Source: a virus
Virus record (IMG/VR): IMGVR_UViG_3300021963_000006
Span: 1-38,992 of that record
Length of the DNA stretch: 38,992 nt
Direction: 5' to 3' (one strand)
Part shown: positions 11,698 through 38,992 of the stretch, one piece after another
How positions within the stretch are numbered: position 1 is the first letter of the stretch
Layout of the letters: each line of letters starts with the position of its first letter
Program-made: the position numbers and the translations under genes
Notes under the pieces: model-generated
What the model was told of the DNA's origin: nothing
Databases searched by the model: none
What the model saw: the letters and a program-made list of their open reading frames with translations, nothing else

Positions 11698-13737
11698 TTA
11701 ATACCTGTCTATTACAGGATTGATAATTGAATTTACCGTTCTTTGGATATCGTTGTAAGTATCCCAATCTCCAATAGCGGCTGCTCTTTGCTGTCTGGTC
11801 ATCCAATCAGCACCAAGTTGTTTAACTATTTCTGCTTGTTGTGCTACCGTTGTAGGATTGGTAGATACAGGCTGAGTTGTAGGTGCTATTGCTCCTGCGG
11901 CAGATATAGTAGGTAATTGATAAGTGTTAGTAGCATTAGGCGTGACCATACTGGCAGGGTTATAAGCCTGTCTTCTGTTGGCTGCTTGTATTTGTCGTGT
12001 AGGAACATTTTTACCAGCAATTAAATCTGCTATTTGTGCTCCAGTTAGTGGTTGAGCAAGTTGCTGTAAGCCCCAGGGCGTATCTGGACCTGCTGCCTGA
12101 TTGTAAGCAACATCATCAAATGTAGGACCAACCTGATAACCTTTTGCGTTCCAGTTATACTTGCTTTGAGCAGGATCATAGGTATTATAAAAATCACTGG
12201 GATTGATATAACCTGGGTTTAATCCTAAACCACGTTGTGGAGGTTGCGTAGGCGGTAATGTTGGTGGCAATGTCGGAGGTAAAGTAGGCGGCATTGTCGG
12301 TGGGAAAGTAGGAGGCAATGTTGGAGGCATTGTAAAAGTAAATGTCTCTGTTTCTGTCTCGGTTTCCGTAGGTCTTTCAGTGGTCACAGGAGGCTCTGTA
12401 GTCACTGGTGGTAATGTAGGCAACAATGTATCCGTAAAACTGAATGTAAATGTTTCAGTTGGTGGAGGTGTTGTTGGTGGAGGACGAGAAGCAGTAATAA
12501 TAATTTCACTGATTTCTTCTGTTTCCGTAATAGGAGGCAAACTTGGCAACAACGTATCCGTGAAACTAAATGTCAGCGTTTCAGTTGGGGGTGGTGTTGT
12601 CTGTGGTGGTCTGCTGGCAGTAATAATAATCTCACTGATTTCTTCTGTTTCAGTAATCGGTGGCAAACTTGGCAACAAAGTATCCGTAAAACTAAATGTC
12701 AAAGTTTCAGTTGGAGGTGGTGTTGTCTGTGGTGGTCGTGACGCTGTAATAATAATTTCGCTGACTTCTTCAGTTTCCGTGATTGGAGGTTCTGTTGGAA
12801 GTATAGGCAACAATGTATCCGTAAAACTAAATGGTGGTATAGTTTGAGTAGGTCTTTCAGCAGTAATAATGATTTCCGAAATCTCTTCACTTTGAGTTTG
12901 AGTAGGTCTTTCAGCAGTAATGATGATTTCACTGATTTCTTCAGTAGGCTCGATATTACTCCAACTGAATGTTGGCATTTCAGTTGTAATTTCTTCCGTT
13001 GGACGAACAGCACTAATAATAATTTCCGATATTTCTTCAGTGGGTGCTTCGGTAGGCACAACCGTAAAGATATCTGTAGGTTCTTCTGTAGGTGCGTCAG
13101 TGGGCAACACTGGACCTTCAGTATATACTGGTTCTGTAGCAGGAGGCTCTGTATATACTGGTTCCGTATAAGGAGGCTCTGTATATACTGGTTCCGTATA
13201 AGGCGGGTCTGTATAAACTGGTTCCGTATATGGAGGATCAGTGTAGATAGGTTCGGTATAAGGCGGGTCTGTATAAACTGGTTCCGTATATGGAGGATCA
13301 GTGTAGATAGGACCAGGGTCTATAGGACCAGGACCAGGGTCTGGGTCATAGCCACCTCCAGGGTCATAGCCACCTCCACCTCCACCATCAATAGGTTGGT
13401 CTTGAATTGGATCGTCACCGCCACCAAATCCACCACCATCATCGTAGTAATAATTGCCGCCATCGCCATAGCCAAAACTATCGCCATAGCCACCACCAAA
13501 TCCACCACCCCAATCTCCAAAATCACCACCACCGCCATCAGCGTCCATATAAAAGCGTCCGCTATCGTCGGCAAACATAAATTCAGGCAAGCCTGTTTTT
13601 GGATTGATAGTTCCGCTACCGCCTAATCGTTTTAATAAGGCTGCTTCTTCGGGATTGATGTGTGCCAGCATAGTGTCGCCACCTCTGCCGTATTGTGCTA
13701 ACATCTCTGCTAATGATGGTAATTTATTATTGTTCAT
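11698..13737 (-). CDS. Repeat-rich virion/host-interaction candidate with TonB-box-like repeats
   Basis: This 679-residue mosaic protein has several zones. Residues 17-53 hold GGDTMLAHINPEEAALLK and GGSGTINPKTGLPEF, a module recurring from memory in phage virion proteins. Residues 66-135 are Gly/Asp/Tyr-rich. About 139-202 are 10-residue YTDPPYTEPV repeats. About 234-417 hold six copies of EISEIII[TS]AxRP separated by Pro/Thr linkers. About 465-500 are xPPTLPPT repeats. The C-terminal 180 residues are less repetitive. The EIIITAxRP unit resembles the N-terminal TonB-box/plug start of TonB-dependent receptors. It may be a flexible virion protein that engages TonB or a receptor. The ATG is two bases after TAAATAATA. 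No catalytic motif is visible. Confidence 0.8.
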   Translation of the reverse strand: MNNNKLPSLAEMLAQYGRGGDTMLAHINPEEAALLKRLGGSGTINPKTGLPEFMFADDSGRFYMDADGGGGDFGDWGGGFGGGYGDSFGYGDGGNYYYDDGGGFGGGDDPIQDQPIDGGGGGGYDPGGGYDPDPGPGPIDPGPIYTDPPYTEPVYTDPPYTEPIYTDPPYTEPVYTDPPYTEPVYTEPPYTEPVYTEPPATEPVYTEGPVLPTDAPTEEPTDIFTVVPTEAPTEEISEIIISAVRPTEEITTEMPTFSWSNIEPTEEISEIIITAERPTQTQSEEISEIIITAERPTQTIPPFSFTDTLLPILPTEPPITETEEVSEIIITASRPPQTTPPPTETLTFSFTDTLLPSLPPITETEEISEIIITASRPPQTTPPPTETLTFSFTDTLLPSLPPITETEEISEIIITASRPPPTTPPPTETFTFSFTDTLLPTLPPVTTEPPVTTERPTETETETETFTFTMPPTLPPTFPPTMPPTLPPTLPPTLPPTQPPQRGLGLNPGYINPSDFYNTYDPAQSKYNWNAKGYQVGPTFDDVAYNQAAGPDTPWGLQQLAQPLTGAQIADLIAGKNVPTRQIQAANRRQAYNPASMVTPNATNTYQLPTISAAGAIAPTTQPVSTNPTTVAQQAEIVKQLGADWMTRQQRAAAIGDWDTYNDIQRTVNSIINPVIDRY
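12489..13040 (-). repeat. Six TonB-box-like repeats (EISEIIITAxRP) in coding sequence
   Basis: Six copies of a segment encoding EE[IV]SEIII[TS]A[SEV]RP occur. On the plus strand their conserved GCnnTAATnATnAT cores start at 12491, 12617, 12743, 12860, 12914 and 13010. The three lowest are exactly 126 bases apart (42 residues) with near-identical flanks encoding TETLTFSFTDTLLPSLPPITE, which shows recent tandem duplication. Third positions differ between units while the residues stay fixed, suggesting selection on the peptide. Confidence 0.9.
13130..13320 (-). repeat. Tandem 30-bp repeats encoding YTDPPYTEPV
   Basis: A run of about six 30-base units encodes alternating YT[DE]PPYTEP[VI]. Bases 13201-13250 and 13261-13310 are an exact 50-base direct repeat at 60-base period. 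Such perfect repeats can expand or contract by slippage. Confidence 0.9.
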
Positions 13738-17216: not shown

Positions 17217-17480
17217 TTATTTGCTCAAATGATAGTTGATGTATCCTTGCCACTGATGATCAGTTAAATGGTGTTGCCAGAAATATTCACCATCTTTGTA
17301 TTGTCCCATTAAATCACCACCATCAAATATAATCTCTATCGTTTTGGTAGGATGTTTGCGACTTCTGGTTATCAATGCTGTCACTGCTCTTGCCAAACTA
17401 TCTGTATGACATTGAATCATATCATCACGCTTCTCATCGTAATAACTAATCTCAAACATTTTGGTTGTATTGTATTTCAT
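17217..17480 (-). CDS. Small early protein, unknown function
   Basis: This is an 87-residue protein starting MKYNTTKMFEISYYDEKRDD, ending HHLTDHQWQGYINYHLSK. It is soluble, mixed charge, with no recognisable domain. The start at 17480 follows AGAGGAGATGAT (GAGGAG at ideal spacing); an ATG seven codons earlier overlaps the ribosome site and is rejected. It is the last gene of the early block, with its own bipartite promoter-like signal at 17503-17525. Such short early proteins often act on host functions, but nothing here shows a target. Confidence 0.75.
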   Translation of the reverse strand: MKYNTTKMFEISYYDEKRDDMIQCHTDSLARAVTALITRSRKHPTKTIEIIFDGGDLMGQYKDGEYFWQHHLTDHQWQGYINYHLSK

Positions 17481-17502
17481 ATCATCTCCTCTAATACACA
17501 AG

Positions 17503-17525
17503 TATTTATCTCACGGTTCTGTTTA
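17503..17525 (-). promoter_or_regulatory. Early bipartite promoter signal E
   Basis: On the minus strand TAAACAGAAC is followed after exactly 7 bases by TAAATA, then by GAGGAG and the ATG at 17480. The box overlaps one arm of the 8-bp inverted repeat at 17514-17540. It is one of five matching sites in the early block. Confidence 0.6.
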
Positions 17526-17540
17526 TTGTTGGCAGAACCG
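17514..17540. other. Inverted repeat overlapping early promoter E
   Basis: CGGTTCTG/CAGAACCG (17514-17521 and 17533-17540) form a perfect 8-bp stem with an 11-base loop, extended by near-matching CTCA/TGAG flanks. No T-run follows. It could be an operator or an attenuator for the small gene downstream. Confidence 0.5.
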
Positions 17541-17563
17541 TTGAGCAATCTGTCCAAAACATT

Positions 17564-18193
17564 TTACCAGTAGCGATCGTTCTTGTCAGGCTTGAAACCA
17601 TAGACACGCTCCACATAACGGTTTGCCACGGTTCTAAAGTTTAACCGTCTCCGACCGTTCTTTAAGCGTAAGGGATCCTTGACCATATACTTGTTCATCA
17701 ACTTGTTGAAATCTTTATTGAACGCAGAAATATCTTCAGTGCGTATGTAAATGTTAGGTATGTTGATCCTAACTGCTCGCTCTACAAACCTACGCTCACC
17801 ATCCTGATAGATCCAGTTCCAATCGTTGTAGTTCCAGTTCTCTGTTTCAACCTTTCTATCTTCTTCAATCTTTAGTTCAATGAATGTCTTCAACCGTTCT
17901 TTGATTGTAGGCAACATAATCGGAGTGTTTTGAAACGCAACTTCAGGCAACATAAATCTTGTCATCTTGTCTTCAGGTTTGAGTGTGTCTAAATCTACGG
18001 CATCCTGCTTCAACGCTGACCACAAGTCTAATCTATTCTTCTTCCAAAAGTTTTCTTGTCCCAGCATATTCATAAACTGCTGTTTTTCATCATACTTTTT
18101 GATTGTCGCAAGTGCTCGGTCAAGTTCGATACATACTTTTTCCGCAGTTCTTTCTCTGCGTATTTCCAAATACAAGGTTTGAGTGTTAAACAT
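17564..18193 (-). CDS. Early protein, unknown function (209 aa)
   Basis: This is a 209-residue hydrophilic protein starting MFNTQTLYLEIRRERTAEKV. It is rich in Arg, Lys and aromatic residues, with NWNYNDWNWIYQDGERRFVERAV mid-protein and a strongly basic C-terminus (RLKNGRRRLNFRTVANRYVERVYGF). This suits nucleic-acid binding, though no family is recognised. The start at 18193 is preceded by AAAAAGGAGATAAT; an ATG eight codons upstream precedes that ribosome site and is rejected. Promoter signal A lies 25-50 bases upstream, after a 207-base gap holding a large inverted repeat. Confidence 0.8.
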   Translation of the reverse strand: MFNTQTLYLEIRRERTAEKVCIELDRALATIKKYDEKQQFMNMLGQENFWKKNRLDLWSALKQDAVDLDTLKPEDKMTRFMLPEVAFQNTPIMLPTIKERLKTFIELKIEEDRKVETENWNYNDWNWIYQDGERRFVERAVRINIPNIYIRTEDISAFNKDFNKLMNKYMVKDPLRLKNGRRRLNFRTVANRYVERVYGFKPDKNDRYW

Positions 18194-18217
18194 ATTATCT
18201 CCTTTTTGTTTTAACAT

Positions 18218-18243
18218 TATTATTTATCTCTACATTCAGTTAT
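18218..18243 (-). promoter_or_regulatory. Early bipartite promoter signal A
   Basis: ATAACTGAAT (18234-18243), a 7-base gap and TAAATAATA (18218-18226) on the minus strand precede the AAGGAG ribosome site and ATG at 18193. Confidence 0.65.
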
Positions 18244-18302
18244 TTTACTACTACCAAAACATCAGTTTTACCATTTTATTGTATAATACTGCGTATATTA
18301 GC

Positions 18303-18391
18303 GGTGTGTAATCGGGGTAAAATCCTTATACCTGCTTCATCAAGATCAAAACCTTGTTAGCGTTTCAGCAAAAAAACCCCGATTACACACC
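18303..18391. ncRNA. Large inverted-repeat element: candidate structured RNA or origin
   Basis: A perfect 16-bp inverted repeat (GGTGTGTAATCGGGGT at 18303-18318, its complement at 18376-18391) encloses 57 bases. Inside it smaller pairings TGCT/AGCA and CAAG/CTTG can stack. It fills much of the 207-base non-coding gap (18194-18400). Neither strand has the T-run of a terminator after the stem. A TATAAT at 18282-18287 on the plus strand could start an RNA at its left edge, but no -35 is visible. It could be a structured RNA, a replication origin or a regulatory cruciform. Confidence 0.5.
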
Positions 18392-18400
18392 ACTTCTACC

Positions 18401-18622
18401 TTACTTTTTACACACTAAACTACGCCATTGACCATCGTTTTCATTTTTAATAATATCAATACATTCTTGAATAGCCTTTGTTTGTTGATCTATCAATCGT
18501 TGTGTTAGTTCAATCATAACGGCATCGTTGTTGTCTGTTGCTCTATCCAGTTTAGTCATCAATACTTTTTTATGTTTAGCCAAATGTTTGACTAAACTCA
18601 TTATTTCAATCTCTTTTTTCAT
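18401..18622 (-). CDS. Small early helical protein, unknown function
   Basis: This 73-residue Lys-rich protein starts MKKEIEIMSLVKHLAKHKKVL, with a likely two-helix coiled coil (residues 8-60, LTQRLIDQQTKAIQECIDIIKNEN). The start at 18622 follows AAAGGACGGTGAA; the second Met (residue 8) lacks an equivalent ribosome site. It lies 11 bases after the 90-residue gene and is the last of a five-gene run starting at 19477. No function can be assigned. Confidence 0.75.
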   Translation of the reverse strand: MKKEIEIMSLVKHLAKHKKVLMTKLDRATDNNDAVMIELTQRLIDQQTKAIQECIDIIKNENDGQWRSLVCKK

Positions 18623-18633
18623 TTCACCGTCCT

Positions 18634-18906
18634 TTAATGATACACCACAGCATTACCACTAACAAGTTCAGGACAAGCATCCATAATACTATAAACTCTA
18701 CAATCATCCCAATGCTTTTTGTTCAAAGTATCCAAGATATATTCAATCCACTCTCGACAACCTTCGCCGTCAATATCAATGTAATCAAACTGCTCAACAA
18801 CAACATAGTCTAAACCCCGACCAAAAAACTCGCTGTCTTCAGGAGTATTGATGTAGATATTCGCTATCGTATTTTCTTCTAAAGTTATAACCGTTTCGTA
18901 GTTCAT
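18634..18906 (-). CDS. Small acidic early protein, unknown function
   Basis: This 90-residue, strongly acidic protein starts MNYETVITLEENTIANIYIN, with DYVVVEQFDYIDIDGEGCREW in the centre. Its mixed beta/alpha pattern and negative charge are the sort seen in DNA mimics or inhibitor proteins, but that is inference only. It overlaps the previous gene by an ATGA junction, so it is co-translated. Four cysteine/histidine residues in the C-terminal half do not form a clear zinc site. Confidence 0.75.
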   Translation of the reverse strand: MNYETVITLEENTIANIYINTPEDSEFFGRGLDYVVVEQFDYIDIDGEGCREWIEYILDTLNKKHWDDCRVYSIMDACPELVSGNAVVYH

Positions 18907-19214
18907 ATTAAACTCTCCTCTCTGGGAAACATCAAACCAAACATACTGCGTGTCATTTCTTCGTGCTTTTTAGGTCTATACAGATTGACCTGTTTCAATG
19001 CTTGATTCAACCAGCGTTGCGGTTTATTACCCTGACGCTTTATTTTACCAGGTTGTTCAACAACCAAGTAGTGTATGCCCAAGTCCATACCTTGAAACCT
19101 ACCTTTTAACTTTGACAGAAAAACGTGTTCATCTGTGATGTTCAACCAAGCACCTGCCATAAAGTCTTTGTTGCCTGTGTCTTCACCTATGAGTATGTAT
19201 GTATAGTAAGTCAT
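18903..19214 (-). CDS. Small early basic protein, unknown function
   Basis: This 103-residue protein starts MTYYTYILIGEDTGNKDFMAG. Its C-terminal half is basic (QPGKIKRQGNKPQRWLNQALKQVNLYRPKKHEE). It contains YLVVEQ, also seen as YVVVEQ in the next, acidic gene, which hints that these adjacent genes may share ancestry or a fold. The start overlaps the previous stop by one base (TAATG). No known domain is recognised. Confidence 0.75.
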   Translation of the reverse strand: MTYYTYILIGEDTGNKDFMAGAWLNITDEHVFLSKLKGRFQGMDLGIHYLVVEQPGKIKRQGNKPQRWLNQALKQVNLYRPKKHEEMTRSMFGLMFPREESLI

Positions 19215-19477
19215 TATTCTTGCTCCTCTGTGTTGTATTCTTCAACTGCTTCATTAAACTCTTGTTCGTCCATACCATATACTGCTTCAGCAATATCAGC
19301 AAAAGTGATTAGACCTGAAACATTAGCCCAAGTCAAGTTGTCCTGTGCTTGTTGTCTGATCTCATCAAAATCTTCAAATATCGAACTGAATGATGAGCAC
19401 GGTTCCCAGTTGCGTTGATGAACGGCAGTTATAATAGCAAATGCTTTGATTGCTGTAATGTTGATTTGTTTAGTCAT
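19214..19477 (-). CDS. Small early acidic protein, unknown function
   Basis: This 87-residue protein starts MTKQINITAIKAFAIITAVHQ and has an acidic C-terminus (MDEQEFNEAVEEYNTEEQE). It is mainly helical, with no membrane segment and no recognised family. AAAGAAAGGGACTACACA precedes the ATG, and promoter signal B lies 36-58 bases upstream, so this gene starts the run 19477 to 18401. Confidence 0.75.
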   Translation of the reverse strand: MTKQINITAIKAFAIITAVHQRNWEPCSSFSSIFEDFDEIRQQAQDNLTWANVSGLITFADIAEAVYGMDEQEFNEAVEEYNTEEQE

Positions 19478-19512
19478 TGTGTAGTCCCTTTCTTTGTTAT
19501 GTTCTACAATAG

Positions 19513-19535
19513 TATTTACCTTACTATTCAGTTAT
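19513..19535 (-). promoter_or_regulatory. Early bipartite promoter signal B
   Basis: ATAACTGAAT (19526-19535), 7 bases, then TAAATA (19513-19518) on the minus strand. An 18-base sequence 40 bases upstream (19574-19591) is also present upstream of signal A (18261-18278). Confidence 0.6.
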
Positions 19536-19588
19536 TGTATAATAAAAACCTGACAAAGTCAATAGTTTTTTTTATCAGTTTTACCATT

Positions 19589-19852
19589 TTAGTTGATCAT
19601 CATCACTTCAAAGTCCGCACATTTGAAACGGTGATTTAATCGCTGACATTGTAATCTGGCACTACCCAAGTTTGTATAAGTCATTTTCTTATAGATAAAT
19701 CCATTACCCGTCATACTGCCCCTTGATATTCTAATGCTAATCGGTTGTTGTTGATAAGTGATAGCATAGTATCTATCTGCTGCCAATATCTCCCAAGTTG
19801 TTCCATCACCAACTTCTATTGAGTGTTTTACTTCTGCTCCAGGTCTTGCCAT
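19589..19852 (-). CDS. Small early protein, unknown function
   Basis: This 87-residue protein starts MARPGAEVKHSIEVGDGTTWEI and looks like a compact beta-barrel or SH3-like fold (YYAITYQQQPISIRISRGSMTG). It ends CADFEVMMIN. The ATG follows AGAAAGGTAGAACA and lies within the end of the previous gene (25-base overlap), a typical dense phage arrangement. No function is recognised. Confidence 0.75.
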   Translation of the reverse strand: MARPGAEVKHSIEVGDGTTWEILAADRYYAITYQQQPISIRISRGSMTGNGFIYKKMTYTNLGSARLQCQRLNHRFKCADFEVMMIN

Positions 19853-20079
19853 TGTTCTACCTTTCTAAATCTATTTTCATATTCAGGATGTTTGAGTATG
19901 AATACCAATGCCTGTTCGTCAGTCATCGTTGCCCAATAAGTCTGCCATTGCCAATCAATACCAGTAGCAAACGGGCTATTTTCGTGATACTCTTTTAAGT
20001 CCGCCACGAGTTTTTTTACAGGATAATCCAATCCTTCGTAGTCCATATCTTGTGTTATCTTCATCATCGCTGCCACCAT
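19828..20079 (-). CDS. Small early protein, unknown function
   Basis: This 83-residue protein has many Trp, Tyr and Gln residues (IDWQWQTYWATMTDEQALVFILKHPEYENRF). GAGAGG 4 bases before the ATG supports the start at 20079; an ATG at 20067, forming an ATGA overlap with the HNH stop, is an equally plausible start and would shorten it by four residues. It overlaps both neighbours. No domain is recognised. Confidence 0.65.
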   Translation of the reverse strand: MVAAMMKITQDMDYEGLDYPVKKLVADLKEYHENSPFATGIDWQWQTYWATMTDEQALVFILKHPEYENRFRKVEQWQDLEQK

Positions 20080-20462
20080 TTTTCCTCTCTGACCTTGACC
20101 AACTTTGCTTGTCGTAAGCCCTGAGTTTCATCTTGTTTTACTCTTGTGCCACGTAGTGTGCCATCGCTGTAAAACCGTCGGTGATTAGGTCTTACATCAA
20201 AATGATGCCAGTTCATACAATAAGGATCACCGCAGGTGTGTTTGATCTGTAAGTCATCGCAGTCTTCGTTATAAACATCACGATACAAAATGCGTCGTGC
20301 CTGTGTCATCTGAGGCTTGCCTGATTTTCTAACTCCAAACAAGTTTGTCTGCGGTCCGCGGCTACCAATCCACGCCCAGCAATCATTATCCCCAGTTTGA
20401 ACTATCTTTTTCCATAACACTTCAGTGTTCCAAGTCCATTCACCAATAGTTTTTTGTGTCAT
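20064..20462 (-). CDS. HNH-type endonuclease
   Basis: This 132-residue protein starts MTQKTIGEWTWNTEVLWKKI. CWAWIG near residue 28 and IKHTCGDPYCMNWHHFDV (about 73-90) form the zinc-binding HNH (beta-beta-alpha metal) motif, with H75, C77, C82, N84 and H86/H87 as likely metal and catalytic residues. It is a nicking or homing-type nuclease. It sits inside the early operon, with its start overlapping the HEXXH gene by an ATGA junction, so it may be a resident early enzyme instead of a free-standing intron nuclease. No intron or split gene is seen nearby. Confidence 0.8.
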   Translation of the reverse strand: MTQKTIGEWTWNTEVLWKKIVQTGDNDCWAWIGSRGPQTNLFGVRKSGKPQMTQARRILYRDVYNEDCDDLQIKHTCGDPYCMNWHHFDVRPNHRRFYSDGTLRGTRVKQDETQGLRQAKLVKVREEKWWQR

Positions 20463-20776
20463 AGTTTTAAGTCCCTGTCATCAAATATTGCCAACAACTC
20501 AGGATTGTTTCTAAACAAGTCCAATAAACCTAACGCCATTAAATCGACCTGCGTTTCGGTTATGTTCAACGATAACTTTTGTTCGATTGAGTGTAAGAGT
20601 TCGTGTAAGAGTGTGTGTTTTCTGCTCACATCGTCTTGTTGTTCGTGTAGCAATATCTTGCGTTGATCTGGCAAGCACAAGCCTAAATGATCAGGTAGTT
20701 CCTGTTCATTACCACTACGTATCTGCCATTCTTGACTAAACAACTTAAATGTTTTTGCTGTCTGCTGTTTCTTCAT
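20459..20776 (-). CDS. HEXXH metalloprotease-like protein (minigluzincin type)
   Basis: This 105-residue protein carries the zinc-protease motif HELLH (residues 58-62), preceded by KHTLL, with a third-ligand candidate E74 in ITETQVDLMALG. This layout matches small ImmA/IrrE-like phage minigluzincins, which may cleave a regulator or simply use the fold structurally. The ATG follows AAAGGAGATAAT and promoter signal C is just upstream, making it the head of the run continuing into the HNH gene. The substrate is unknown. Confidence 0.7.
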   Translation of the reverse strand: MKKQQTAKTFKLFSQEWQIRSGNEQELPDHLGLCLPDQRKILLHEQQDDVSRKHTLLHELLHSIEQKLSLNITETQVDLMALGLLDLFRNNPELLAIFDDRDLKL

Positions 20777-20793
20777 TATTATCTCCTTTGTAA

Positions 20794-20842
20794 TATTATT
20801 TATCCTGACATTCAGTTATTTTATAACTTACTTTGTCAGGAT
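20794..20842 (-). promoter_or_regulatory. Early bipartite promoter signal C with nested hairpin
   Basis: ATAACTGAAT (20810-20819), 7 bases, then TAAATAATA (20794-20802). The box lies in a nested palindrome: ATCCTGACA (20802-20810) pairs with TGTCAGGAT (20834-20842), and AGTTAT pairs with ATAACT (20814-20819, 20823-20828). This could be an operator. Confidence 0.65.
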
Positions 20843-20860
20843 CCAGGTTATACTTCAGTA

Positions 20861-22654
20861 TTATAGTAAGTCAGTCCTGATTGTATCAATAGTAATCTTG
20901 TTATCCACATTTGCTTTACCATCTATTTCAATGTCAGCATCAATAAAGTCTGTAATATCGAACACATACTTGTCTTGATCTTTCTTTACCGTATTTGTGT
21001 CTCGGATAATAGCAAAGCGTCTGCGTGTATCAGCGTGAGCACCCTGATGCGGATAAACGCTTTCCGTTTCTACCACGCAGTCCCAGTTCGCTTTAGTATT
21101 CAACCAATGAACTGCGGCATTCTTAAACCAGTCTTTAGTTGTTTTAGCAGTTTCACTAATATCGTAAAGTTTGTGTGCCAGTTTAATATTGATTACATTA
21201 CTGCCATCCATCAATGCTAATAACTTCGGCATAAACACTTCTATTCCTCGTTGTTGTCTTATTTTCATTTCGTCGTAGTATATTCCGTGTAAGGGTAGTA
21301 GTTCAGTCATCTGTTCTACATTGTGTTTCTTTATAATATAACCCAACCATTCACTAATCCTTTCTTCACATTGATAAGCATCTTTCTGCCATTGTTTAAT
21401 AATCATAGTTGCCGCTGTTTCTTGTTCCAGTGTAAAAGCATCCTTAAAATCACTGATCATTTCAGTGTATTTTGCTATGTGTCGGGCAAGATTATAACGG
21501 GCAATGATAGGCTCAAATCGTCTATCTTCACCGCTGGGACCTGTTCCCGCAAGTTTCGCTGTAGTTGTATAACCGTTTCTAAAAAACATAAAGTTAAACA
21601 ATCTGACAGCATCAGTGGCATTCTCACCCATTGCTCTGTGTCTGTATATTCTGTCGCCTGTTAGGTCTTTGATCTTGTCAATAGGTATGCTACGGCTATC
21701 TTTCTCACTGACCTTGACCCACATCTTACCAAACAAATCACCGTTGTGTGTTCCACTAAATGTTTCTTCACTAATAGTAGCACAGCACTCTTCGGTAAAT
21801 ATATTTCTAATCACACCAAAGAATGTATCTCTGCCTGTGCCACCAGTAGCACAACTATCAATATTAGGTATCATAACATCTTCTGGGTGTATGTATCTGT
21901 ATGCTACCATTCGTTCAAGTTGATCAGCATAGTCTTCATCACCACCAGCAATACTCAAACACAACAATCGAAAAGCAGGATGCGGTTCAACATCATAAAT
22001 CGGTTTTAACCAAAAGTTCCTAATGTCAATCATCTGATTGTAAGTGCCAGGTCTTGTTGTTGTATTAAAGTCTCGGACAATGTGTTTGAACATTCTGTTC
22101 TTTTCTTTAGCATAGCGTTTCATCTCTTGTTCGTTTTGTATCTCCCATTCAGTTTCATAAAACAACAAGTCTTTCATTTCACTGCCAGTTAAACTAACAA
22201 CTCTGGGTCTGCGTCTATCACCATCAGGATCAACCATCCACCATTTCTGTTCGTTGATCACATAATGTATGTTGTTGATCTCAAATGTCTTACTGACATT
22301 GTCTTCGCTTTTCTTGTCGCGTTGTTCTTTGCCAGTAAGTGAGTTTAACTTTGCCAGGTCTAACTTCTTCTCTGTAAGTATGTCGTTAAATGTTTCAATG
22401 TTTGCTTTGTGCTTTTTGATATTTGCTTTAGCATCCTTTTGTTCAGTCTTTAACTGCTTGACTACATCGTTGCGTGTTTCTTTAACCAGTTCAATCTCTA
22501 TCTCAATCACTCTGTCTTGTAATACTTTCAGTGCTTGTTCAGCGTTATCAATCGTTTGTTGATGATAACCTATTTCACTTTCTAATAATGCTCTGGCTTG
22601 TTTAATAGCATCGCTGTCTTCTTCAATGTTCAACTTTATTACGTTGTCTGCCAT
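20861..22654 (-). CDS. SF3-type replicative helicase (DUF5906-like)
   Basis: This 597-residue protein has a Lys/Glu-rich coiled coil at residues 1-115. The ATPase core follows from about 225: PNIDSCATGGTGRDTFFGVI (residues 263-282) is the Walker A region and GDLFGKMWVKVSEKD (305-319) the Walker B region, in the arrangement of phage SF3/D5-like helicases. In Walker A the usual GK[ST] reads G274-R275-D276, with Arg replacing the normally invariant Lys, so ATP binding may be altered. It likely unwinds DNA with the PrimPol gene directly upstream, 1 base away. AAGGAGATGAA is a strong ribosome site. The helicase name is moderate confidence. Confidence 0.75.
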   Translation of the reverse strand: MADNVIKLNIEEDSDAIKQARALLESEIGYHQQTIDNAEQALKVLQDRVIEIEIELVKETRNDVVKQLKTEQKDAKANIKKHKANIETFNDILTEKKLDLAKLNSLTGKEQRDKKSEDNVSKTFEINNIHYVINEQKWWMVDPDGDRRRPRVVSLTGSEMKDLLFYETEWEIQNEQEMKRYAKEKNRMFKHIVRDFNTTTRPGTYNQMIDIRNFWLKPIYDVEPHPAFRLLCLSIAGGDEDYADQLERMVAYRYIHPEDVMIPNIDSCATGGTGRDTFFGVIRNIFTEECCATISEETFSGTHNGDLFGKMWVKVSEKDSRSIPIDKIKDLTGDRIYRHRAMGENATDAVRLFNFMFFRNGYTTTAKLAGTGPSGEDRRFEPIIARYNLARHIAKYTEMISDFKDAFTLEQETAATMIIKQWQKDAYQCEERISEWLGYIIKKHNVEQMTELLPLHGIYYDEMKIRQQRGIEVFMPKLLALMDGSNVINIKLAHKLYDISETAKTTKDWFKNAAVHWLNTKANWDCVVETESVYPHQGAHADTRRRFAIIRDTNTVKKDQDKYVFDITDFIDADIEIDGKANVDNKITIDTIRTDLL

Positions 22655-22655
22655 T

Positions 22656-23651
22656 TCATCTCCTTGTCAATATTTCCTGTGCCAATCTTTCAGCACCGCT
22701 TTTCTTTACTTGTATCGGTGTGCCACCATACTCTTGTATAAATCTATCTCGTTTCTCTCTGGTAATCCTATCACCTTGCCAGCCTAACCAAGCCGTGCGT
22801 CTAATACTGCTTGACTTCAACTGACTATCACTACCTGCTATCTGATCACATAGTTGATCATACTCGCCATAAGTTAAACCAATACTGCGACATATACTAA
22901 TGAACATCAGCACGCCGCCTTCACCGTGTCCCCTGTAGCCCAATCCCTGACAACTACGCAGACTTTTCAATACTGCTTCTTTGTATAGTGGATCAATGTT
23001 ATCATACACTGGTCTGTCAATATCACTATACACAGGTTCTTCTATTACTCGTTCTTCAAACATATACGGATCAATCATAACACCCTGATTGTGATAAGCA
23101 ATAGCATCGTTGTTGCCGCTGTGAAAGTAAAAACTCTGCGACATTGTAAAACTACTTAAATCAACTTGCTTAAATGTTTCTACTATATGTGCTTGTCGGG
23201 GTGCTATGTCTGCTCGCATCAACGGCTGACTAAACGGAATGATTATTCTAAAACGGTGATTGTCAGCAGTATGATTAAATGTTGTATAAATCACATACTC
23301 AATATCCTTGTATAGTTCCATAGCCGCTTCAATGCGTTGATTTTTATCCACATCTAATACAATGCCGTGTATCGCTACTACATTTGCTTTACACCTACGC
23401 ACCGTATTTTCGTGTTGTATATAATCGCCTGTCCATTCACCGTTGTTAAAGATTTTAGTTCTACCTAACTCAGCAGTAGGATCACCAATATCCTTGAACT
23501 CTGCCAAGTTAAACATAGGCACATCAGTTTTACTTTCGGCACTACGATGGACCGTTAAAAAGTCTGCTACATTATCCCAAGTATCATCTGCTTGTTGATA
23601 CGCATTATATATCCACGCCTTCTCGACGCTGTCAAATAAAGTTATTTTCAT
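22656..23651 (-). CDS. PrimPol-like primase (archaeo-eukaryotic primase superfamily)
   Basis: This 331-residue protein includes HGIVLDVDKN with D100 and D102 as the metal-binding DxD, and DNHRFRIIIPFSQPL (residues 130-144), which matches the sxH..R region of AEP/PrimPol enzymes. SQSFYFHSGN follows. The C-terminal half (LRSCQGLGYRGHGEGG onward) looks helical and may be the linker to the helicase. It probably makes primers, and perhaps short DNA, for replication, as the phage has no recognisable DNA polymerase. It has an ATGA overlap with the upstream nuclease gene and a 1-base gap to the helicase. Confidence 0.75.
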   Translation of the reverse strand: MKITLFDSVEKAWIYNAYQQADDTWDNVADFLTVHRSAESKTDVPMFNLAEFKDIGDPTAELGRTKIFNNGEWTGDYIQHENTVRRCKANVVAIHGIVLDVDKNQRIEAAMELYKDIEYVIYTTFNHTADNHRFRIIIPFSQPLMRADIAPRQAHIVETFKQVDLSSFTMSQSFYFHSGNNDAIAYHNQGVMIDPYMFEERVIEEPVYSDIDRPVYDNIDPLYKEAVLKSLRSCQGLGYRGHGEGGVLMFISICRSIGLTYGEYDQLCDQIAGSDSQLKSSSIRRTAWLGWQGDRITREKRDRFIQEYGGTPIQVKKSGAERLAQEILTRR

Positions 23652-24493
23652 TTCTTCTCCAATATCTTTGCCATTCTCGCTCTTGCGTTTTCAAGCATTT
23701 TATTTTCTTGTTGTTTGACCAACTTCATACGCTCTTCGTGCTCTGCTATGTTCGCATCAACTTTAGCCAATCGTTCATCTTTTACACGTTGTCGCTCTGC
23801 TTCTTCTTTTTCCAAGCGTTCTGTTTCCGCTCGTAGTCGTTGCTCTCTGGCAGGTGCGTCTGCTTCCCAAGCCAATCGCTCTGCTTCTGCTCTTGCCAAT
23901 CGTGCCTGATTTTCTTGTTCCAGTTTAATCCTTGCTTGTTCAGCAAATACTTTAGCCTGTTCAATCATTTGTTGTCTGATCTGCTCTTGTTTAGTTTGCG
24001 TTCGTATTTCAAACTCTATGCGTTCCAGTCTTTGTTGATTGGCTTCATCAACTTTGCGTTGATGTTCTTCGTAGGTCAATACTTCTTTGTAGCGTTTATA
24101 ACTTGTGATCTTACGCATACGCATATCATCGGCTACAGCCATACGCTCTGTCATCCAAAGATCATTGCCCTTTTTAGTATTTTTCAATGCCACGTTATCA
24201 ACTAATAGTCTCATAATGTGTTCATCTTCAAGTGCTTCTGGTCCGTCAGCACCATATTGATCTACTTCAAACAAGTCCCATTCAATGTTGTTTGCGTCCA
24301 AATAATCGTGTATGAACCTATAAACCAATGTGCTTGTATCATCAGCGTATTTGGCACTAACTCTGTGTTGTCCAATGCGTTGTGATATGCTTATTGTTTC
24401 ACCAACATAGAATGGATGCCAAGCATCTTCTATCTTACAACGCAGTTCATAGATATAACCTGGTTGGTAAGTTCCATCTTCATTTCTTTTCAT
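23648..24493 (-). CDS. GIY-YIG nuclease with long coiled-coil tail
   Basis: This 281-residue protein starts MKRNEDGTYQPGYIYELRC. The N-terminus has a GIY-YIG fold: GYIYELRC, then HPFYVGETISISQRIGQHR, where Y and the RxxQH arginine would be catalytic; conserved acidic residues follow (EALEDEHIMRLL). From about 140 to the end it is a nearly continuous Glu/Arg/Lys/Ala coiled coil. The second ATG (24493) is chosen because AAAGGAG abuts the first. It may cut host or competitor DNA or act in recombination. It heads the replication operon behind promoter signal D. The coiled coil suggests oligomers. Confidence 0.8.
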   Translation of the reverse strand: MKRNEDGTYQPGYIYELRCKIEDAWHPFYVGETISISQRIGQHRVSAKYADDTSTLVYRFIHDYLDANNIEWDLFEVDQYGADGPEALEDEHIMRLLVDNVALKNTKKGNDLWMTERMAVADDMRMRKITSYKRYKEVLTYEEHQRKVDEANQQRLERIEFEIRTQTKQEQIRQQMIEQAKVFAEQARIKLEQENQARLARAEAERLAWEADAPAREQRLRAETERLEKEEAERQRVKDERLAKVDANIAEHEERMKLVKQQENKMLENARARMAKILEKK

Positions 24494-24516
24494 ATACATC
24501 TCCTTTAATGTATAGT

Positions 24517-24539
24517 TATTTATGCCTGTATTCTGTTTT
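24517..24539 (-). promoter_or_regulatory. Early bipartite promoter signal D, head of replication operon
   Basis: AAAACAGAAT (24530-24539), 7 bases, then TAAATA (24517-24522), followed by AAAGGAG and the GIY-YIG start. It is directly downstream of the late-block terminator at 24568-24604, as expected for the start of a new transcript. Confidence 0.65.
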
Positions 24540-24567
24540 TATACACTATTTCTACACATATTTGTCC

Positions 24568-24604
24568 AAAAAAAACCCTGAGAATGACCAAATACTCAGG
24601 GTTT
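24568..24604 (-). terminator. Rho-independent terminator ending the late block
   Basis: A perfect 10-bp stem AAACCCTGAG/CTCAGGGTTT (24573-24582 and 24595-24604) with a 12-base loop is followed on the minus strand by eight T residues (24568-24575 complement). It separates the late block from the early operon and would end the structured RNA that precedes it. Confidence 0.88.
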
Positions 24605-24703
24605 CCAAACCAAATGCGGCAGCATTCAGTTTAATATAGTAGCCTATTGTAGAAAGGGATATAACATTAGAGGATAACCAGTATATACTGGCGGGCTACT
24701 ATA
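24568..24703 (-). ncRNA. Candidate phage small RNA with own promoter motif and terminator
   Basis: On the minus strand a TAAATAATA motif (24705-24713) is followed at once by TATAGTAGCC (24694-24703), whose complement GGCTACTATA is at 24635-24644. Between them lies the perfect palindrome CCAGTATATACTGG (24678-24691). The strong terminator at 24568-24604 ends the unit. No convincing reading frame is present. A transcript of about 135 bases starting at the 10-bp stem is predicted. It is not a tRNA: no anticodon or T-loop fits. It could instead be a structured 3' untranslated region of the 58-residue gene. Confidence 0.6.
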
Positions 24704-24704
24704 C

Positions 24705-24713
24705 TATTATTTA
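24705..24713 (-). promoter_or_regulatory. Late motif TAAATAATA before the structured RNA
   Basis: This exact copy is fused to the stop codon of the 58-residue gene. No protein gene follows it for more than 200 bases, only the hairpin-rich unit and terminator, so here it most clearly looks transcriptional and not translational. Confidence 0.6.
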
Positions 24714-24883
24714 TGTAAATCTTCTAAAAGTTCTTGGAACTTTTCTTGTGTATCTGCTCGAACAACTAAATCAGCAACTTCAGCAAATATTTCTGGATAC
24801 TCATCTCGCAACGCAAAAGCCAGTTCAGCGTCTTCGTTTTTGTAAGCCAAATATAGTTGTGATAGTAATGTTATGTGGTCCAT
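24707..24883 (-). CDS. Small acidic protein, unknown function (58 aa)
   Basis: This 58-residue, acidic, helical protein starts MDHITLLSQLYLAYKNEDAEL and ends EKFQELLEDLHK. The ATG follows GGAAGGAATGAA and lies inside the end of the 90-residue gene, a 13-base overlap that suggests coupled translation. It is the last protein gene of the late block. The composition (Leu, Glu, Asp, Ala) fits a small helical adaptor; no family is recognised. Confidence 0.75.
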   Translation of the reverse strand: MDHITLLSQLYLAYKNEDAELAFALRDEYPEIFAEVADLVVRADTQEKFQELLEDLHK

Positions 24884-25140
24884 TTCATTCCTTCCATATC
24901 TTCATTCAACTCTCTAAACTCGCCCCAAATAGCCATTAGTTTTTCCACGGTTTCGAAATCATAATCACCAATAATATAAGTCATTTGTGCGTTATGTAGT
25001 TCGCTGACAAGTTTAACTTTACCATCGCTGGGTTCCATATACACTAACAAGTGATACTTGTCCAAGTATATTCGATCTCCGTCGAACTCACAATCTGGGC
25101 AAAACGCCCCATACCAATGTTTGATTTCTTGTTTGTCCAT
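24871..25140 (-). CDS. Small late protein, unknown function (90 aa)
   Basis: This 90-residue protein starts MDKQEIKHWYGAFCPDCEFDG. The CPxC pair is near the N-terminus, but no second pair completes a zinc ribbon. The rest alternates strands and a helix (YHLLVYMEPSDGKVKLV). The start at 25140 is chosen because it is two bases after TAAGTAATA, a one-mismatch copy of the late motif; a non-ATG start ten codons upstream is less likely. It lies between the holin candidate's neighbour and the last gene of the block. Confidence 0.7.
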   Translation of the reverse strand: MDKQEIKHWYGAFCPDCEFDGDRIYLDKYHLLVYMEPSDGKVKLVSELHNAQMTYIIGDYDFETVEKLMAIWGEFRELNEDMEGMKWTT

Positions 25141-25166
25141 ACTATTACTTATGCCTTTGACTCTAA

Positions 25167-25532
25167 TCAAAGTTCATAACTGCGTTGTTTTTTTATTTTA
25201 GGTGCCCTGGTATGTTGCCAATATGCTCGAACTGATTGTCTGTTTAGCCATAGATCATATTCAGCAAGTTGTTCATCAGGCACATACATCAGTGTGACCC
25301 ACGTATTTTTATTAGTGTTTTTATAAATGACCTGATCTTCTACTAACAAGCATTCAACAGGTTTATCTGTCATTATTGCTCGATTGTAGTTGTCAGGTTC
25401 AGGCACCGTATATGGTGTATCACCAGGAAGTTTAGTCCAAGCCAGTTGTTTAGCAACTGGTATTCTTGGATCAACATATTCTCTTCTGGGTGTTCCATCT
25501 ACATAACACCAACTCATTGCTCTGTTTGCCAT
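25167..25532 (-). CDS. Late protein, unknown function (121 aa)
   Basis: This 121-residue soluble protein starts MANRAMSWCYVDGTPRREYVD, has a mixed strand/helix pattern and several Trp and Tyr residues (WVTLMYVPDEQLAEYDLWLN), and ends with a basic tail (RAPKIKKQRSYEL). The start at 25532 follows TAAATAAGA, a near-copy of the late motif; the earlier non-ATG start would overlap the holin-like gene and is rejected. It lies in the fibre-to-terminator segment where lysis genes are often found, yet no lysozyme, amidase or peptidase motif is visible. Confidence 0.75.
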   Translation of the reverse strand: MANRAMSWCYVDGTPRREYVDPRIPVAKQLAWTKLPGDTPYTVPEPDNYNRAIMTDKPVECLLVEDQVIYKNTNKNTWVTLMYVPDEQLAEYDLWLNRQSVRAYWQHTRAPKIKKQRSYEL

Positions 25533-25536
25533 ACTC

Positions 25537-25809
25537 TTATTTAATATAGATAACAACAGCACCAACTATAGCAACTATAATGGCACCGACGCTGGCTATT
25601 AGTTGAGTTTGCTTACTGGTATTTTGACGCTCCAGCATAAGTTTGATTTCAGCGAACCCTTGGTTAGTCTGTGCTTTAAGAGCAGATACCTGATCCTCAA
25701 TCTTGGTGAGTCTTGCTTCAACATTATCCAGCCTTCCTTCTAATGCCTTATAGCGTAGTTCGCATAAGTGTATGTGCCCTTTGAGCGTAGTTTCTTTGAA
25801 GTTGTCCAT
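25537..25809 (-). CDS. Membrane-anchored coiled-coil protein, XhlA-like holin candidate
   Basis: This 90-residue protein has a charged coiled coil (ALEGRLDNVEARLTKIEDQV, residues about 22-45) and one hydrophobic C-terminal segment LIASVGAIIVAIVGAVVIYI (about 70-89). This resembles XhlA/haemolysin-type proteins that anchor to the inner membrane and help lysis. One membrane segment is typical of class III or XhlA-type holins. The next genes show no endolysin. TATAATATG overlaps the end of the fibre gene just upstream, with no clear ribosome site. It could also be a tail-tip or spanin-like component. Confidence 0.6.
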   Translation of the reverse strand: MDNFKETTLKGHIHLCELRYKALEGRLDNVEARLTKIEDQVSALKAQTNQGFAEIKLMLERQNTSKQTQLIASVGAIIVAIVGAVVIYIK

Positions 25810-38594: not shown

Positions 38595-38992
38595 ATTGGG
38601 TCCTTGTAATTTAATTCTGCTACTTTTTTATCTGTATATTTTTGGTTGATGTAATCTAATCCACAAAAATCTATATACTGCTTTAATGTTCTTTTCGTGC
38701 CTAATCCATAAACACCAAGTTCTTTACCAGTTGTCACTCGCCAACTACGGTTTTTACCAGCATTGCTGTATTCGTGCCATTTAGTTTGTGCGTGTGGTTC
38801 TATCATTTTATCTGACCAAGCCTTGTTTCTATACTTACCAACATACTGATGATACACTGGCATATTACAAGGATGGAATATATTATAGCCGTGTGTCCAT
38901 AAGCGTAGTGCGTATGAGCATTCTTCACCACTAAAGTATATATGTGGATCATATGGCACTCGTTCTACCAAATGACCTGGACCAAATAAACA
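38591..38992 (-). CDS. Glycosyltransferase (GT60-type), C-terminal part, runs over contig end
   Basis: This is the continuation of the gene starting at 685; together they encode 319 residues. This part carries HIYFSGEECSYALRLWTHGY and the following HPCNMPVYHQY, where the GEE region and HxY histidine are typical of the GT60 active-site half. The C-terminus (GVYGLGTKRTLKQYIDFCGLDYI) is the short helical end seen in related enzymes. It ends with an ATGA overlap on the nucleotidyltransferase-like gene. An apparent start at 38971 is an internal TTG and not a real start. Confidence 0.85.
   Translation of the reverse strand, partial: CLFGPGHLVERVPYDPHIYFSGEECSYALRLWTHGYNIFHPCNMPVYHQYVGKYRNKAWSDKMIEPHAQTKWHEYSNAGKNRSWRVTTGKELGVYGLGTKRTLKQYIDFCGLDYINQKYTDKKVAELNYKDPI
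38866..38992. repeat. Terminal redundancy, right copy (circular contig overlap)
   Basis: This is the exact second copy of bases 1-127. The true genome unit is bases 1-38865. Read-depth across the join would show whether any of this is a real terminal repeat; nothing in the sequence argues for one. Confidence 0.9.

Follow-up and report, generated by a model that had tools for sequence, protein, structure and literature searches.

The DNA analyzed here, referred to as the window, is the stretch of 38,992 nucleotides at positions 1–38,992 of the IMG/VR record IMGVR_UViG_3300021963_000006, which derives from an uncultured phage. An identical 127-base direct repeat occupies both ends (1–127 and 38866–38992), so the record looks complete and is probably a whole genome. 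Among its early genes, a gap of 207 bases (18194–18400), bounded by a minus-strand open reading frame (ORF) of 73 amino acids (aa; 18401–18622) and by a further minus-strand ORF that starts at 18193, holds a long inverted repeat, which we consider here as a candidate replication origin. A D5/SF3-type helicase gene (20861–22654), the proposed initiator, and a primase-like gene of the same module (22656–23651) also lie on the minus strand. A preliminary description of this locus had named the gap as the longest in the early block; the length is as described, but the gap is not the sole longest if the small ORF at 24707–24883 is a gene, since it then ties with 24500–24706.

The arms of the inverted repeat (18303–18318 and 18376–18391) are perfectly complementary over 16 bp and enclose 57 bases, as first reported, and they lengthen to 19 nt at 95% identity with one mismatch (18300–18318 and 18376–18394). 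With a score of 16, the element is the top inverted repeat of the whole window at spacings of up to 150, the runner-up scoring 11, and dinucleotide shuffling of the complete window sequence gave no such score in 100 trials. On the minus (sense) strand, the left arm (18376–18394) consists of the innermost left repeat, GTGTGTAA at 18383–18390, and its flanks. A second direct GTGTGTAA copy, the outer left repeat, lies at 18408–18415, its register having been compared with loci L083, L041, and L074 of related phages; GTA cores on this side fall at 18411, 18399, and 18386, at spacings of 12 and 13 nt, with the middle copy degenerate. Across the 57-nt core (18319–18375), the right arm (18300–18318, minus strand) carries the inverted copy TTACACAC at 18304–18311 plus flanks, and 18 of its bases are the same in a sister element, L001. 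Degenerate outer right copies follow on the same strand at 18281–18297 (TATACGC at 18291–18297 and TTATAC at 18281–18286); they are kept in L001 and were aligned with the right repeats of L083 and L082. The AT-rich flank mentioned in the preliminary description spans 18186–18285, is 79% AT, the highest value per 100 nt in the window, and may be a melting region.

Comparable arrays are found beside the helicase genes of related phages. A search with the gene for a 718-aa structural protein of the window yielded 67 loci, several of which have long inverted repeats enclosing ~40–120 nt just past a D5/SF3-type helicase gene (DUF5906, VapE-like, or DUF3987 being counted as such), each with its own short repeats. 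When the conserved core of the window helicase was used as the query, the closest relatives found were L082 (66% identity) and L083 (64%), followed by L089, L084, and L086. In each of these five, a repeat array follows the helicase gene on its 3′ side, immediately in L082, L083, L086, and L089 and ~180 bases further on in L084. The arrays of L082 and L083 are colinear with the window element over about 120–145 nt. In the relatives, a core, very AT-rich in L041 and L074, lies between two sets of ~13-bp repeats (iterons) that oppose each other, and opposed repeat sets likewise surround the core in the window. On sequence comparison, then, the element is homologous to repeat arrays that immediately follow, on the 3′ side, D5/SF3-type helicase genes orthologous to that of the window.

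We also compared the window element blindly with 9698 segments of 165 nt, on both strands, from related phage loci, omitting 14 loci that were duplicates or carried the window’s or the sister’s element. With match and mismatch scores of 1 and −1, the L082 and L083 sites took ranks 1 and 2, and those of L086, L084, L089, L074, and L041 ranked 10th, 14th, 72nd, 106th, and 211th, respectively; none of 2000 shuffles of the element reached the L082 or L083 score. Scanned in reverse with this permissive scoring, the arrays of L082, L083, L084, and L086 each ranked the window element first among 1942 entries, the L084 match falling on the other strand. For the L001 element, the L041 array ranked first among all segments under both of the scorings used.

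An inverted-repeat survey then covered the 40 nt ahead of the helicase stop codon and the 400 nt beyond it (in L010 and L021, the stop codon of the following primase was used). A score of at least 13 was seen in 14 of 21 records, the window excluded, compared to 1 of 162 other intergenic gaps (Fisher P = 5e-15), a figure to be read with the bias that 11 of the 21 records had first been spotted through their own repeat. In the 10 records that came from helicase homology, scores of at least 13 occurred in 3 (vs. 1 of 162, P = 6e-4) and of at least 12 in 5 (vs. 6 of 162, P = 8e-5). Scores below 11 were obtained for L021, L038, L079, L084, and L089, with short repeats still visible by eye in L021, L084, and L089. 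As a separate observation, a weak GGCACCT-like core motif is present in many of the 14 array spacers despite their differing repeats, most clearly in L023, L016, L004, L048, and L078. Shuffles scored as high as the GGCACC core in 1, 0, and 0 of 60 trials at motif widths of 9, 11, and 13, and the motif is weak in the window.

The repeats change in a coupled manner. In a seven-way alignment, the arms formed standard pairs in 79% of cells, compared to 65% in shuffles, and 19 cells had changed on both sides; none of 500 shuffles scored as high, and slid controls were far lower. The inner repeats read GTGTAA/TTACAC in the window and L001, GCGTAA/TTACGC in L082 and L083, GAGTAA/TTACTC in L086 and L074, and GCGTAA/CTACGC in L041. 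By eye, the base changes of the inner repeats recur in the outer direct copies. Matching changes in these outer, unpaired copies would be unnecessary for a stem but expected if a single protein bound them all. The covariation that the preliminary description had proposed looking for is thus present among seven phages, but the accompanying changes outside the stem are more in keeping with binding sites of one protein than with an obligatory cruciform.

Taking these results together, we propose, with a probability of about 0.8, that the element is the phage’s replication origin and is bound by its own helicase. In this model, the helicase would bind the opposed ~13-bp repeats on either side of the 57-nt core and helicase rings would then assemble at the element. 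Either the core or the AT-rich flank would melt, the neighboring primase would lay primers, and two forks would depart.

Besides the sampling bias of the survey, several observations weigh against this proposal. The element lies 2.5 kb downstream of the helicase gene, among small early genes; several repeat copies within it are degenerate; and its core region is 64–65% AT, a value that approximately 20–25% of stretches equal or exceed. The blind result needs the permissive score, since L082 and L083 fell to 13th and 33rd with match and mismatch scores of 2 and −3. In the reverse scan, the arrays of L041, L074, and L089 did not single out the window element, nor did those of the less related L016, L058, L023, and L019, and a profile built from the L041 and L074 arrays missed it, its best match in the window falling elsewhere, inside an ORF. 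Finally, GC skew and skew at third codon positions (GC3) differ between the early block and the structural genes without any switch at 18.3 kb, so that the skew signal the preliminary description had suggested as a check on an origin is absent. Sense-strand GC3 skew is positive in most early genes (17217–25565) and negative or near zero in most structural genes.

The preliminary description had offered an origin, a structured RNA, and a cruciform control element as candidates. The first gains from the homology to arrays 3′ of orthologous helicases, and the other two fare less well, largely on account of L001, the only other virus-collection contig from which the same gap was recovered. The L001 element occupies the same place as in the window; the contig begins at the element, so its helicase is not seen. 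It retains the 3′ arm and ~95 nt past it (86% identity over 110 nt), the GTGTGTAA and TTACACAC sites, and further right-hand copies, but of the four changes in its 5′ arm, three disrupt pairs, and the full stem is not kept. An origin that works as an extruded hairpin or cruciform, as has been argued for plasmid pRN1, rather than through linear repeats would suit the covarying arms, the strong DNA fold of the window element compared to shuffles (z = −6.0), and dimensions (a stem of 16–19 bp and a loop of 57 nt) close to the 21-nt stem and 58-nt loop given for pRN1 in the portion of the source used here (PMC4234260). The L001 fold, however, barely beats shuffles (z = −1.9 and −1.4), inverted-repeat scores reach only 10 in L084 and L089 although both carry repeats, and the outer unpaired copies change along with the arms; we regard this version of an origin as unlikely. 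It is highly improbable that the element acts in the early transcript as a structured RNA or an attenuator. Folded as RNA, both strands outdo shuffles by a wide margin (z = −6.4 and −6.9), an effect driven by the closing stem, which is the very feature lost in L001. The window gave no Rfam match at the gathering score, and a local search gave only sub-threshold ones. In agreement with the preliminary description, no intrinsic terminator (a G+C-rich hairpin with a short loop and a trailing T run) was predicted between 17000 and 21000, and the equivalent arrays, with their direct and inverted repeats, lie past helicase stop codons.

A further alternative retains helicase binding but not initiation: the element could be an auxiliary site or an early-transcription operator through which the helicase regulates replication or transcription, with the true origin elsewhere. 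Such a role would be in keeping with where the element sits, as a promoter-like module directly follows it and the helicase gene is distant. We nevertheless judge it quite improbable, as the window has no other repeat of comparable strength, none adjoins the helicase gene, and in relatives no array besides the homologous one was seen 3′ of the helicase.

The proposed initiator matches DUF5906 above the cut-off as well as a PHROG DNA primase family, and its profile matches the solved primase of phage NrS-1 (5e-10). Foldseek comparison of a structure model of moderate quality (mean predicted local distance difference test [pLDDT] score of 66.9) returned the C-terminal region of the NrS-1 protein, poxvirus D5/E5, and SaPI5 PriRep1, the last at 8.7e-5; C-terminal residues 528–597 were modeled at pLDDT <50. 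All eight helicases of the clade (window, L082, L083, L084, L086, L041, L074, and L089) have GGTGR(D/E) at Walker A, an arginine replacing the lysine, and L023 has GGNGKG. No relatives of the helicase core were found in the genome contigs collection, nor any of the helicase in plasmids. The primase-like gene matches PHROG primase families and has relatives in L082 and L083; its structure model was too poor (mean pLDDT of 40.8) and was discarded.

As to the displacement of the proposed origin, no inverted repeat beside the window helicase scores above 9. In L016, an array lies between the helicase gene and a gene for 105 aa, and the matching gap in the window is 84 nt long and has no array. The window helicase and primase resemble those of L082 and L083, the other early genes resemble those of L016 and L038, and the L016 and L038 records contain no match to the window primase. 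The simplest explanation may be a module exchange that left the origin 2.5 kb from its own gene. More tentatively, and at rather less than even odds, this phage group may swap primase-helicase modules together with their cognate repeats, producing many mutually specific initiator-origin pairs; the window’s origin would have moved away from its partner, and the Walker A arginine would suggest a variant ATP-driven origin opener.

The AT-rich flank also contains the promoter-like module. The motif AACTGAATnnAGAGATAAATA (18221–18241, minus strand), which lies ahead of the gene that starts at 18193, probably does not belong to the origin proper. It has five matches with at most three mismatches in the window, at 17503, 18221, 19513, 20797, and 24517 on the minus strand, compared to 0.03 expected, and motifs of this type recur upstream of genes in L016, L038, and L004. 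The 18-base repeat pointed out in the preliminary description has exact copies at 18261–18278 and 19574–19591 and falls within this module. A BLAST search of the gap against named phages covered just 9–21% of the query, and a tRNA search found none. Elsewhere in the window, there are matches to terminase, portal, and major head protein families, and the phage group appears to be podovirus-like. Among named phages, the matches to the 718-aa structural protein are all distant, the top one being an unclassified Caudoviricetes record (46% identity over 74% of the query). A gene at 11698–13737 contains dense tandem-like repeats at 12400–13330, in units of 15, 30, and 126 nt.

The element offers a concrete candidate for the site at which uncultured phages of this group start to replicate their DNA, and the many repeat-helicase pairs of the group would allow the evolution of initiator specificity to be studied. 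The window further suggests that an origin site and its initiator gene can separate. A limited search of the open-licence literature found no paper describing such an origin in these phages.

The kind of origin proposed is already known from other elements, and the window would add a new case. The alpha protein of phage P4, which PMC4234260 also mentions, is a primase-helicase initiator with winged-helix binding of origin iterons; we liken P4 alpha with ori/crr to the present system by description and in initiator type only. The origins of phage-inducible chromosomal islands (PICIs) and Staphylococcus aureus pathogenicity islands (SaPIs), in the part of the source drawn on here, likewise have a core with a set of short repeats on each side, which a helicase initiator reads, and the array immediately 3′ of the helicase gene is shared with the window’s relatives (PMC6092414). 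The initiator is D5/SF3-like in both. In contrast, the window array is 2.5 kb from the gene and its core is not AT-rich, so that a strict PICI-type assignment fails on these two features, and the array is carried on a phage genome that encodes structural proteins of its own rather than on a satellite island.

The origin of the crenarchaeal plasmid pRN1 is described, in the available portion of its report, as a 100-nt stem-loop with a 21-nt stem and a 58-nt loop, located 3′ of a primase-SF3 helicase gene, required for replication and active after being moved; its authors proposed a similar stem-loop origin for phage BIP-1 (PMC4234260). The window element would share with it a stem-loop of ~100 nt, nearly equal in stem and loop size, that serves a primase and an SF3 helicase. 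That same portion describes pRN1 without iterons (PMC4234260), whereas here the repeats are conserved and the stem is lost in L001, and the primase and helicase are encoded by separate genes. SCCmec Cch2, as far as the excerpted source goes, is a D5-type helicase with a C-terminal DNA-binding domain that binds a few short direct repeats 3′ of its own gene (PMC7581432), a similar arrangement apart from the opposed repeat sets that are the rule in the window’s group. By analogy, the putative origin of the window may work like the pRN1 and SCCmec Cch2 systems.
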